DNA of 64,000 nt from Halomonas sp. TD01 (lineage in GTDB: Bacteria > Pseudomonadota > Gammaproteobacteria > Pseudomonadales > Halomonadaceae). The translations under genes and the position numbers were made by a program. Location of the stretch: positions 2,852,001-2,916,000 of the forward strand of contig NZ_OV350343.1 of NCBI RefSeq assembly GCF_923868895.1. The letters run 5' to 3'. Numbering within the stretch: the first letter of the stretch is position 1; the number at the start of each line of letters is the position of its first letter. Shown in pieces: positions 47,879-52,730 of the stretch. The notes under the pieces are model-generated. The model did no database searches. It was not told where the DNA came from and saw only the letters and a program-made list of their open reading frames with translations.

Positions 47879-47962
47879 ACTGTTTCTTTACTTTCTTTCC
47901 CCTAGCGGTACTTGTCGGCGCTTCTGCCGGTGACCGCCGTCATTAGAGTTCGACCACTGCCC

Positions 47963-48874
47963 ATGATCAGACAACGCACATTACAAAACGTCATTCGCGC
48001 CACCGGAGTGGGTCTGCACTCTGGCAAAAAAGTCCACTTGGCTTTGCGCCCGGCGCCGGCTAATACCGGAATTGTGTTTATCCGGACCGATTTGGAGCCT
48101 GTGGCTCACGTACCTGCTCGTGCCGAATTGGTGGAAGACACCACATTATGCACTGCGCTTTCTTACAAGGGCGTGAAAGTCGCTACGGTCGAGCATTTAA
48201 TGTCGGCATTTGCCGGATTGGGCATTGATAACGCCTATGTCGATGTAAGTGCACCTGAAGTGCCTATCATGGACGGTAGTGCCAGCCCTTTTGTATTCTT
48301 AATTCAGTCGGCGGGCATTTTAGAGCAAGATGCGCCTAAGAAATTCATTCGAATTAAGCGCCGCGTTGCCGTCAGTGATGGCGATAAAGAAGCCGTTTTT
48401 TTGCCGCATCAAGGCTTTAAAGTTTCTTTTGCAATTGACTTTGATCACCCTGTGTTTGAGCAGCAAAAACAAACTGCGTTGATCGATTTTTCAACGACGT
48501 CGTTTGTTAAAGAGGTTTCTCGTGCACGTACCTTCGGGTTTATGCGCGATCTCGAATTTTTACGATCCAATAATCTTGCGCTTGGTGGTAGCTTAGATAA
48601 TGCTATTGTTGTGGATGACTACCGCATCGTGAACGAAGGTGGTCTGCGTTACGACGATGAGTTCGTCAAGCATAAGGTGCTTGATGCTATTGGTGATTTG
48701 TACCAGCTGGGCCACAGTTTGATTGGCGAGTTCCAGGGTGTTAAATCGGGACACGCGCTCAACAACCAGTTGTGCCGCGAGCTATTGGCGCAGCCCGACG
48801 CCTATGAAATCGTCACATTTGAAGAAGATAAAGCGGTTGCGCCTATCTCTTACTCGGCACCTGCAATGGCATAG
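47963..48874 (+). CDS. lpxC: UDP-3-O-acyl-N-acetylglucosamine deacetylase LpxC
   Basis: A 303-residue zinc deacetylase, first committed step of lipid A synthesis. The start Met-Ile-Arg-Gln-Arg-Thr-Leu is typical; zinc ligands are His in Glu-His-Leu-Met-Ser-Ala and His/Asp in His-Lys-Val-Leu-Asp. Length as in E. coli (305). Last gene of the dcw cluster, 161 bases after ftsZ. Confidence 0.97.
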
Positions 48875-48980: not shown

Positions 48981-49448
48981 TTATTCATCTGAATGCTTAG
49001 GTGCATGAGCCGCTAAGCGCTCCAAGGCGTTTTTAAGGGAGGGGTTGTCGGTATCTTTTGCGCACTCGGCTAGCGTTTTGCCTGCATTCTCAGAGAGGGT
49101 GCGAGTGTAGCGCTTCGGGCTCTCAATTGGCCGTACAGGTCGCACTTTAAGTGTAAAGCCGGTGACACTCTCAAATCCTGGTAGCTGATGCAGTAGCACA
49201 AGCAGTCGCGGTTGTTCATAGCGTAACCATGTTAGCCAGCTTGCCTGGCCGCTTATTAGCGTCAATCGCCCCTCTCGAAAGCCTCCGACGAAAATATGTT
49301 CGCGCATTGCTTCAGGAAGGTGAGCACGTAAATGACGCTGAGCCTGATCAATTAAGCGGGACTGTCGCATAAGCTGTCCCGCGCTGCCAGACTTGGTCAG
49401 CAGTTGGGTAATGGGCTGTGCGCGAGATCGCTTAACCTTTATACTCAT
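48981..49448 (-). CDS. dciA: DUF721 family protein, DciA-like
   Basis: A 155-residue DUF721 protein. The conserved N-terminal domain (about residues 20-105) includes Trp-Leu-Thr-Trp-Leu-Arg-Tyr and Phe-Lys/Thr-Leu-Lys-Val-Arg-Pro, the region that resembles a KH-like fold. DciA is the replicative-helicase operator/loader in bacteria lacking DnaC. Between lpxC and secA, where Pseudomonas also has a DUF721 gene. Divergent from the small ORF upstream of secA. The DciA role is inferred from family and place. Confidence 0.85.
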   Translation of the reverse strand: MSIKVKRSRAQPITQLLTKSGSAGQLMRQSRLIDQAQRHLRAHLPEAMREHIFVGGFREGRLTLISGQASWLTWLRYEQPRLLVLLHQLPGFESVTGFTLKVRPVRPIESPKRYTRTLSENAGKTLAECAKDTDNPSLKNALERLAAHAPKHSDE

Positions 49449-49484
49449 AAGCTTGAATCCTGGAACGTTGTTGGCTGAGTCGCA

Positions 49485-49512
49485 TTAACGGTTGCCACCA
49501 ACGTCTTATATT
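49485..49512 (+). promoter_or_regulatory. Possible promoter before the secA-upstream ORF
   Basis: TTAACG (49485-49490) and TATATT (49507-49512) with a 16-base spacer lie in the 111-base gap between dciA and the 122-codon ORF at 49560. The -10 match is good, the -35 moderate. A second TTTAAT lies at 49517-49522. Confidence 0.35.
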
Positions 49513-49559
49513 GTCTTTTAATTGATAGAGCCTAACACGCTCAGGAGCCAGTCCACAGC

Positions 49560-49928
49560 ATGTCATCAACGCCAGATGTATTATCTGCTTCGCCGCGGCG
49601 GCAACGCCGAAATGGCCTAGCGCGTTGGTGGCTGGCGGGCCTCTTAGTGAGCTGTTTGTTACCTGCTAGTTTACATCCTTCAGATGCATTGCGTAGCGGT
49701 GAGCGCGGTGTGATTATCTGTTTTTGGGTGCCAGCGATGCTGCGTGCTCAATCCGAATGGATAGCTAAGAAGCGTTGCGCGCTGCGCCGCTGGGTACGAA
49801 AACAGGCGTGTGTCTATCCTGCTGTCTCGCACTGTTCCCGCTACTTTCTTCATATTCCACATCGATTGGTCGCCGCTATTGATGTGCTGATCCCGCGTGG
49901 CCCGCCGGCTCGACTGTTCGCTTATTAA
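49560..49928 (+). CDS. Unrecognised secA-upstream protein, candidate SecM-like arrest peptide
   Basis: A 122-residue ORF I do not recognise as a named family. It has a basic N-terminus (Arg-Arg-Gln-Arg-Arg, residues 13-17), a hydrophobic segment (about residues 23-38) that looks like a signal or anchor, a Trp/Cys/Arg-rich middle and a C-terminus Arg113-Gly-Pro-Pro-Ala-Arg-Leu-Phe-Ala-Tyr122. The end resembles E. coli SecM (Arg-Ala-Gly-Pro-Gln-Arg-Leu-Thr): R-x-x-P-x-R-L is shared, and Arg-Gly-Pro-Pro resembles RAPP-type arrest motifs. The SecM residues Phe150 and Trp155 are not matched. It lies directly upstream of secA (69-base gap), the position of secM. AGGAG at 49543-49547 gives a long 12-base spacer. 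A regulatory role is inferred; a plain hypothetical membrane protein is the alternative. Confidence 0.7.
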   Translation: MSSTPDVLSASPRRQRRNGLARWWLAGLLVSCLLPASLHPSDALRSGERGVIICFWVPAMLRAQSEWIAKKRCALRRWVRKQACVYPAVSHCSRYFLHIPHRLVAAIDVLIPRGPPARLFAY

Positions 49929-49997
49929 ATCTACCCTTATTTGCCTTATATAAAAGGGCGCACCTGAATGGGACGCTCGTGAAGATTTGGAACTTTC

Positions 49998-52730
49998 ATG
50001 ATTAATAATTTGTTACGTAAAGTCGTCGGCTCTAAAAATGATCGCGACGTTAAGCGCATGCAAAAAAGTGTGCTCAGTATTAACGTTTTAGAGCAAGCGC
50101 TTGAAGGGTTAAGTGATGCTGATTTGCAGGCAAAAACAGGGCTGTTGCGTCAAAAGTTAGCAGAAGGCGCATCTATTGATAGTTTATTACCCGAGGCATT
50201 TGCCGTCGTGCGCGAGGCCAGTAAGCGGGTAATGAATATGCGCCACTTTGACGTCCAGATGGTCGGTGGTATGACATTGCATCGTGGCCGCATTGCGGAA
50301 ATGAAAACCGGGGAAGGTAAAACCCTGGTGGCGACGCTTGCCGTATATTTAAATGCGCTACCAAGCAAAGGCGTGCATGTTGTCACCGTTAATGACTACC
50401 TTGCTCGCCGTGATGCTGAGTGGATGCGCCCTTTGTATGAGTTTTTAGGGCTCTCGGTGGGCGTTATCTTCGCTGGCCAAACCGGCGAAGAGAAACGCCA
50501 CGCCTATCAGTGTGATATCACTTACGGCACTAACAATGAGTTTGGTTTCGATTATCTGCGCGACAATATGGCGTTCTCGCTTGAGGATAAAGTGCAGCGT
50601 GGTCTGCATTACGCCATCGTCGACGAAGTCGACTCTATTTTAATTGATGAGGCCCGTACGCCATTAATTATCTCGGGCGCAGTGGATGAAAACACTGATT
50701 TGTATGGCATTGTCAATCGACTGGCTCAGCAGTTAGAGCAAGGGGAGGCCTCTGAAGATAGTGATGTGCCGGTCACGGGAGACTTCCTGCTAGATGAAAA
50801 ACAAAAGCAGGTAGAGCTCACCGAGCAGGGACATAACAAAGTTGAAGAGCTAATGCGTGCTGAAGGGCTGTTGGGCGAGGGTGAATCGCTCTATGCCGCA
50901 CAAAACCTTAACTTGCTTCAGCATATGCACTCCGCGCTGCGCGCACGTCATCTTTATCATTTAGACGTTGACTACATCGTTTCTGAAGGCCAAGTCGTCA
51001 TCGTTGATGAGCATACTGGGCGTTCTATGCCGGGGCGCCGTTGGTCAGAAGGGCTGCACCAAGCGGTTGAAGCGAAAGAGGGAGTGACGGTTCAGCGAGA
51101 GAGCCAGACACTGGCATCGACTACTTTCCAGAACTACTTCCGTTTGTATGAAAAGCTCGCTGGCATGACTGGTACCGCTGATACTGAAGCATTTGAATTC
51201 CGGCAAATCTATGGCCTGGATGTGGTCGTCATTCCAACGAATCGCCCGCTTTCCCGTAAAGATCTGAATGATTTGGTCTATCTGAGTGCGGAAGAGAAAT
51301 ACGAAGCGATTATTAAAGATGTGAAGACCGAAACTGAAGCAGGACGTCCTGTTCTAGTCGGTACGGCGTCGATTGAAACCTCAGAGTATCTCGCTCGCCT
51401 TATGCGTGAGGCTGGCCTAACGTTTAATGTGTTGAACGCTAAGCAGCACCAGAGCGAAGCGGAAATCATCTCTCAAGCCGGTCGCCCTGGCGCCATTACT
51501 ATCGCAACGAATATGGCGGGTCGTGGCACCGATATTGTCCTAGGGGGCAACTGGGAGGCTGAAGCAGCTAAGCTGCAAGATCCCACCCAAGAACAGGTAG
51601 ATGCTCTAAAGGCAGAGTGGCAGAAGCGCCATGACGGTGTTTTAGAAGCGGGTGGCTTGCATGTGGTTGGCTCTGAGCGCCATGAGTCGCGTCGTATCGA
51701 CAATCAGTTGCGTGGCCGTGCGGGACGTCAAGGTGATCCAGGCTCTACACGTTTCTTCCTCTCGCTAGAAGACAGTCTGATGCGTCTGTTCGGCTCTGAC
51801 CGTGTGAAGCGCCTAATGCTGGCTCTCGGGTTAGAGCGAGGTGAGGCAATTGAGCACAAGATGGTGTCTAACGCTGTCGAACGCGCCCAGAAAAAGGTAG
51901 AGGGACGCAACTTTGATATCCGTAAGCAACTGCTGGAATACGACGATGTCGCTAACGATCAGCGTCGTGTTATCTATGAGCAGCGGAATGAAATTCTTTC
52001 CGCTGATGATGTTTCCGATGCCGTTATTGGTATTCGTGAAGAAGTCATGGAAGATGCCATTAGTGATTTCGTGCCGCCCCAGAGTCTTGCTGAGCAGTGG
52101 GATCTACCCGGGTTAGAAGCGCATCTTAAAACTGAATTCAATCTTGATGCTCCTGTTACGCAGTGGGCGGCAGAGGACGAGCGCTTCAGTGAGGAGAAGC
52201 TGCGTGAGCGTTTACAAGCGATGCACCGTGATGCGTATCAAGCCAAAATTGAGGCTGCTGGAGCCGAGTTGATTCGCCGTTTTGAGAAACAGGTAATGCT
52301 TCAGGTGTTGGACACACGTTGGAAAGAGCATCTTCAGTCGATGGATCATCTGCGTCGTGGCATTCATTTGCGTGGCTACGCCCAGAAGAATCCTAAGCAA
52401 GAATACAAGCGTGAATCTTTCGAGTTGTTCCAGCATCTACTAACGAACATTAAAGCTGACGTCACGCGTATCTTAAGCCACGTACAGGTTCGCCAGCCTG
52501 AAGAGGTTGATGCACTAGAGCAGAAGCGCCGTGAAGAGTCAGTGCGTGAACGAGCGACTGCGGCAAGCCGCCACGATGATCCTAACGCCCAGCAGGAAGA
52601 TATTTCACAGGAAGCGCCAGGGGCTGATGGCCGCCCGTTGCGTCGTGAAGGGCCAAAAGTAGGGCGCAATGACCCGTGTTCATGCGGGTCGGGTAAAAAA
52701 TATAAGCAGTGCTGCGGAAAACTAAGCTAA
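49998..52730 (+). CDS. secA: Preprotein translocase ATPase SecA
   Basis: A 910-residue SecA: Walker A [13 protein letters not shown] (DEAD-like), [15 protein letters not shown] and the C-terminal zinc site [13 protein letters not shown] that binds SecB. It drives secretion through SecYEG. Its ribosome-binding site is weak (GGAA at 49989-49992), which leaves room for upstream translational control. Confidence 0.98.

Follow-up and report, generated by a model that had tools for sequence, protein, structure and literature searches.

A 122-residue open reading frame (ORF) directly upstream of secA in Halomonas sp. TD01 is, with good confidence, a Sec-monitoring arrest peptide of the RAPP-like (RQH) class, SecM-like in its action but not a detectable homologue of SecM. 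Judged from the sequence of the window (the whole stretch of 64,000 nucleotides that was analysed), it very likely represents a known kind of arrest peptide, with a type of sensor that has already been described. If arrest occurs, the most likely role of the ORF is to let the cell sense how well protein export works. Less expected are a near-invariant signal block with an invariant cysteine, a spacing of 77–84 residues that is held, and a clean swap with a peptidase gene.

The ORF upstream of secA and its proposed arrest motif

The host genome is a single contig of 4.14 Mb, in which the gene order around the ORF is lpxC, dciA (minus strand), ORF and secA. The features of this region are as follows.

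47912..48874, plus strand: lpxC (PF03331, E 2.5e-111)
48981..49448, minus strand: dciA, the divergent neighbour (PF05258, E 3.4e-8)
49485..49512, plus strand: promoter-like site in the dciA–ORF interval, at chance level (one such site in the stretch scanned, with 1.1 expected)
49543..49547, plus strand: candidate Shine-Dalgarno sequence AGGAG, read from the sequence, 12 bases 5' of the ORF's ATG
49560..49928, plus strand: small ORF of 122 aa, proposed Sec-monitoring arrest peptide (ATG start, relatives, dN/dS well below 1 except in the tail)
49626..49673, plus strand: signal sequence WWLAGLLVSCLLPASL, codons 23–38, near-invariant (dN/dS 0.03)
49713..49766, plus strand: conserved middle block, codons 52–69, consensus QICxxAPxxIRAxSRRxA (dN/dS 0.07)
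49767..49868, plus strand: variable basic spacer, codons 70–103 (dN/dS 0.42)
49872..49907, plus strand: arrest block, codons 105–116, from the alignment and dN/dS (0.12)
49896..49907, plus strand: R113-G114-P115-P116 core, with synonymous codons varying at all four places
49908..49925, plus strand: tail after the stall site, codons 117–122, nearly unconstrained (dN/dS 0.80)
49956..49978, plus strand: leader hairpin GGGCG...CGCTC, just 5' of the secA ribosome-binding site, from a count of standard pairs
49979..49999, plus strand: possible hairpin holding the secA start codon, GUGAA/UUUCAU, from the minimum-energy fold, with SD-like TTTGGA in the loop
49998..52730, plus strand: secA, the presumed regulatory target, an ORF of 910 aa (PF07517, E 4.2e-131)

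As originally predicted, the ORF has 122 codons, begins with a basic and then hydrophobic N-terminus, and ends 69 bases 5' of secA, which starts at 49998. The basic stretch (RRQRR...R) precedes hydrophobic WWLAGLLVSCLLPASL, which by its sequence would serve as an N-terminal secretion signal or transmembrane segment, and the C-terminal end reads DVLIPRGPPARLFAY. The short gap suggests that the ORF is co-transcribed with secA (the promoter-like site is no better than chance).

Database searches gave the ORF no Pfam family at E<=1 and a single weak NCBIfam match (E 0.15), far under the family cut-off. Members of the ORF family hit six Pfam families with one weak match apiece (best E 0.012), which was read as chance. 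Rfam returned no match at E<=1 over 49400–50100, and PDB sequences none to the ORF family at E<=10. The original statement tied the ORF to no known family; the ORF does fit the RQH class of PMC10987492. Its closest named relative among the records compared, from which very near ones may be missing, is in Vreelandella venusta (92% identity), which makes the source genome a Vreelandella or a close relative.

In the arrest block, the family consensus is A-(A/G)-x-D-V-L-(S/T)-R-R-G-P-P, and the window reads A-A-I-D-V-L-I-P-R-G-P-P. Of 134 sequences aligned on the motif, 120 have D at -5, 105 have V at -4 and 106 have R at -1. Synonymous codons drift freely at all four core residues, with six Arg codons and four Pro codons in use, and selection therefore acts on the protein. 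The Ile-Pro that precedes RGPP in the window, where most relatives have Ser/Thr-Arg, was counted against the arrest explanation.

Stalling, and its site, have been published for members of the class, and by analogy the window ORF is predicted to stall with the P115 codon (49902–49904) in the P site and that of P116 (49905–49907) in the A site. This placement follows the toeprints of RQH peptides, whose third motif residue occupies the P site at the stall (Fujiwara et al. 2024, PMC10987492). PMC10951233 explains how peptide-bond formation is blocked when RAP occupies the P site and Pro the A site. RGPP is described as the most robust core in PMC12992588, with the strongest arrest in ApcA and SecM contexts.

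The ORF shares sequence features by which RQH peptides are recognised in PMC10987492. It is an unannotated small ORF directly upstream of secA in the same orientation (secA, secDF or yidC being the genes considered there). A C-terminal RAPP-like motif occurs in more than two ORFs of one order (RGPP in 126 and RAPP in 8 of the 134 aligned sequences; the ORF of genome G018, outside the alignment, has RGPP). The spacer between signal and conserved end exceeds 30 residues, at 77–84 from signal Cys to P-site Pro. The original proposal, a candidate arrest peptide with a RAPP/RGPP-class motif encoded where secM would lie, is therewith supported as likely on sequence grounds.

Within this class, the ORF very probably belongs to the group uA_RQH_Pseudomonadales, an identity that we infer because such an ORF is lacking at 106 loci from the order's other families and GTDB Pseudomonadales covers these families. 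In a 2020 paper, Pseudomonadales was enlarged to take in Halomonadaceae and 16 further families, a step described as 'consistent with' GTDB (PMC7498684). The group as described in PMC10987492 shares with the ORF the location upstream of secA, the N-terminal localisation signal, the C-terminal RGPP and the GTDB order. With its R109GPP peptide, encoded upstream of secA in Pseudomonadales, the arrested fraction exceeded 0.9 on both E. coli and B. subtilis ribosomes. That protein has Arg at 109, as do 15 of the 134 ORF relatives (by the starts chosen), whereas the Arg of the window is at 113, with Pro before it. In the searched literature, the group name was not met beyond PMC10987492, and nothing joined an arrest peptide, or SecM and secA, with Halomonas.

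ApdP and ApdA, which are encoded upstream of secDF2, also have the RAPP/RGPP core and a short arrest sequence near the peptidyl-transferase centre, but differ in downstream gene and in phylum or class (PMC7897499 and PMC10951233). The residues before the core are LALGD in ApdA, QSKCI in ApdP, D-V-L-S/T-R in the ORF family and D-V-L-I-P in the window. In ApdA/ApdP chimeras, the five residues before RAPP affect stalling on E. coli ribosomes (PMC10951233).

Distribution in Halomonadaceae and the rest of the order

A protein search matched relatives of the ORF in 131 of 151 Halomonadaceae genomes, covering 18 of 24 genera. In all 131, and in four of the 20 non-matching genomes (loci L043, L045, L047 and L048), secA is preceded by a small ORF that carries R[AG]PP close to its C-terminus. 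The Arg113-Gly-Pro-Pro motif of the original prediction is thus confirmed in the window and has R[AG]PP counterparts in 135/151 genomes and 20/24 genera. For the 131 genomes, 127 of these ORFs were found by script and three by frame reading (L067, L099 and L116), in addition to that of G018.

The 134 aligned sequences were picked by motif, hence its invariance among them is no independent evidence. Independent of this choice, every matching genome has R[AG]PP, and no ORF-bearing locus was found without the motif. As a control, stop-to-stop frames of >=60 residues were taken from the same loci, off-frame or on the opposite strand; only 2 of these 631 carry R[AG]PP in their last 40 residues. The combined pattern of signal and R[AG]PP is passed by 78 of 80 named loci (L200 and L242 fail). 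These 135 genomes form a large natural collection for the study of a proposed secretion monitor of the RAPP class: they show which residues preceding RGPP are kept, that constraint stops at the predicted stall site, that spacing persists while sequence drifts, and that the ORF is swapped for an M23-peptidase gene.

The swap is seen in the remaining 16 of the 151 genomes, where an M23-peptidase gene lies upstream of secA instead of the ORF. All five peptidases checked among the 16 match PF01551, and at locus L039 the peptidase gene ends 543 bases before secA. Where over 1000 bases were available upstream of secA (50 loci), the ORF was present at 34 and the peptidase gene at 16, with none carrying both and none neither; the exclusion refers to these 50, the flank at other ORF-bearing loci being too short to show a peptidase. 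Regulation by the ORF is dispensable, given the 16 family genomes that lack it, which was counted against the arrest-peptide explanation.

Outside the family, 111 genomes from the rest of the order yielded 107 secA loci, 106 of them usable. At 0 of these 106 did a small upstream ORF end in or near R[AG]PP, although three gave weaker hits (HSPG twice, RSPG once), while 70 have an M23-like gene before secA, as judged by sequence pattern. An order-wide profile search found the ORF family in 4 of 115 genomes, which were the four Halomonadaceae in the set. This absence from the other families sampled, together with the exclusion of the M23 gene, indicates that the ORF probably originated within or early in Halomonadaceae, at the place of the peptidase gene. 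Derivation from the N-terminus of the peptidase was considered and rejected, as the family profile finds nothing in 15 such proteins (best E 0.41).

At locus L099 (genome G071, positions 247–717), the small ORF has no stop and runs in frame into secA. Read-through there would yield SecA with a signal sequence, which may be real or a sequencing error.

A proposed path from a stalled ribosome to secA

In the proposed mechanism, the N-terminal signal would steer the nascent chain to SecA/SecYEG. When export is slow, the chain would stay in the tunnel and Arg113-Gly-Pro would hold the ribosome at a point where no peptide bond forms between Pro115-tRNA (P site) and Pro116-tRNA (A site). A ribosome stalled on the mRNA shared with secA would then raise secA translation. 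Under brisk export, pulling by the translocon would free the chain and secA would return to its basal level, the exported peptide itself being disposable. Release by export and induction of secA are expected because SecM offers a parallel, as does uDF_RQH_Enterobacterales, an arrest peptide that on stalling induces secDF2 (PMC10987492). Such an ORF could offer a native Sec-export reporter for Halomonas/Vreelandella.

To model a SecM-like switch, the energy needed to open the secA start (-18 to +3) was calculated for free mRNA and for mRNA on which a ribosome has stopped at RGPP. The stall-dependent gain averaged 2.74 kcal/mol across 134 loci vs 0.70 kcal/mol for shuffled sequences (20 shuffles of the covered part per locus), with a median of 1.48. 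The gain exceeded 2 kcal/mol at 58 of the 134 loci, and all 20 shuffles were beaten at only 34. Genus means lay above the shuffles in 16 of 19 cases, some barely, and three were negative (p 0.004 by sign test, p 0.0004 by Wilcoxon test). For E. coli secM, run as a control, the figures were 2.62 vs 0.67 kcal/mol, and 13 of 200 shuffles reached that gain. The 25 loci of the window's genus gained 0.52 vs 0.37 kcal/mol, and the window itself 0.83 vs 0.77 kcal/mol, a value reached by 5 of its 20 shuffles. Over the family, the model thus favours a SecM-like mRNA switch, but not in the window's genus, where gains hardly exceed those of shuffles.

It is accordingly possible, if only tentatively held, that the ORF is an arrest peptide whose stall reaches secA by a route other than a SecM-like stem-loop exposing the start, for example mRNA protection, termination-reinitiation or the conserved leader hairpin beside the secA start. 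The scant stall-dependent opening in the window's genus speaks for such a route, as does the hairpin at 49956–49978, in which 238 of 295 pair cells are standard, compared with 117–158 when partners are slid by 1–3 (59 distinct leaders of 77 given, from the window's genus and close named relatives). Against it, the same model favours the SecM-like route in those 16 of 19 genus means; the model, however, assumes one ribosome edge and ignores tertiary contacts and proteins.

RNAalifold also found this hairpin in 20 leaders, at a weak consensus energy of -2.57 kcal/mol, and some two-sided changes in it preserve pairing. The possible hairpin at 49979–49999 is weak, with 226 of 295 cells paired vs 55–171 when slid and hardly any two-sided change. 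As a whole, the window's leader folds no better than its shuffles (z 0.45; an equally good fold in 140 of 200).

Descent, selection and the signal sequence

Returning to the proposed Sec-monitoring arrest peptide, its likeness to SecM (PF06558) extends to the site before secA, the signal sequence and a core of R-x-x-P with Pro in the A site. The ORF could in principle be a SecM orthologue that drifted past recognition, and the distance from P-site codon to secA start (96 bases in the window, 82 in E. coli secM-secA) and the strong conservation of the signal sequence in both (ten enterobacterial SecM compared) would agree with this. Such descent is nonetheless very unlikely. The PF06558 profile has 0 matches at E<=10 in the host genome, while the E. 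coli control matches, and profile-profile comparison of the ORF family with SecM (hhalign) indicates no homology (probability 0.1%, E 0.71–0.76, 19 columns). The core is RAGP in SecM and RGPP in the window, and the tunnel contacts of SecM are absent: with R113 placed on SecM R163, the F, W, I, G and I of FxxxxWIxxxxGIRAGP are replaced by P100, A105, A106, I111 and P112. Furthermore, the M23-like gene before secA at 70 of 106 loci in the rest of the order means that an unbroken line of secM is not evident. The separate lineage that had been originally predicted is upheld by these results. The proposed sharing of R-x-x-P-x-R-L with SecM is not, since the 'R-L' is unconserved (entropy 3.64 and 3.45 bits at positions +5 and +6) and falls in the tail.

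The selection pattern was derived from 477 within-genus pairs at 55–97% identity, which are not independent of one another, among 133 sequences (L099 left out). Beside the values listed above, dN/dS was 0.35 in the n-region and 0.16 in codons 39–51; alignment is difficult in spacer and tail and may inflate their values. The loss of constraint after RGPP fits a nascent-chain function, with the stalled chain doing the work, and the clearest indication that the chain would act before the tail is made is the jump in dN/dS at this point. Conservation concentrated at the C-terminus with a diverging middle had been proposed as a check. The C-terminal block is indeed conserved and codons 70–103 diverge, but the signal and codons 52–69 are conserved even more, which a simple arrest model does not require.

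Constraint is tightest in the signal and middle blocks, which would suit an ordinary small exported or membrane protein, functional as a finished product and with an incidental RGPP. Such a protein is highly improbable given the RGPP/RAPP in every family ORF examined with an unconstrained tail behind it, the linkage to secA and the variable spacer sequence; RGPP is, moreover, reported as more strongly depleted than any other tetrapeptide across 10 major bacterial groups (PMC12992588). The chance that the ORF is spurious and untranslated is close to nil: its named database relatives (among the best 120 of 229) are hypothetical or uncharacterised with one exception, but dN/dS is far below 1 in the signal, middle and arrest blocks where synonymous divergence is high, and an ATG start lies at a similar place in 134/134, though start choice favoured ATG. 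The exception, a relative from Chromohalobacter sarecensis (P0123), has the UniRef name 'ESPR domain-containing', pointing to an extended signal-peptide region.

For the proposed arrest peptide, a further reading is one in which the signal is a sequence-specific part of the sensor, and signal, middle block and spacing together set when the translocon can pull. This joint reading is speculative and rather doubtful. Its parts would be WWLAGLLV[GS]CLLP with the invariant Cys, IRAxSRR, and the 77–84-residue spacing; the IRAxSRR block would sit just outside the stalled ribosome, and the Cys could act in lipidation or another thiol-dependent check. The ORF family offers a test case for whether the signal sequences of monitoring substrates are tuned.

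The hydrophobic block comprises 16 residues after the basic n-region, and its pattern is found in 133 of 134 sequences, with a one-residue variant in L084. Cys32 (49653–49655) is invariant, in 133 of 133 alignment rows with a letter there and 134 of 134 by pattern, and is encoded by TGC in 68 and TGT in 65. Its context, L-V-(G/S)-C, is lipobox-like. The PROSITE lipoprotein pattern keeps one stretch free of charges; a lipoprotein signal is not claimed here, as the context fits a lipobox but Arg22 lies inside the charge-free stretch. In the middle block, R62 is kept in 129 of 134 sequences. The distance from signal Cys to P-site Pro stays within its range in all 134 despite the drift of the spacer sequence, whose net charge averages +10.4 (+9 in the window), compared with 0 for the counterpart in E. 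coli SecM.
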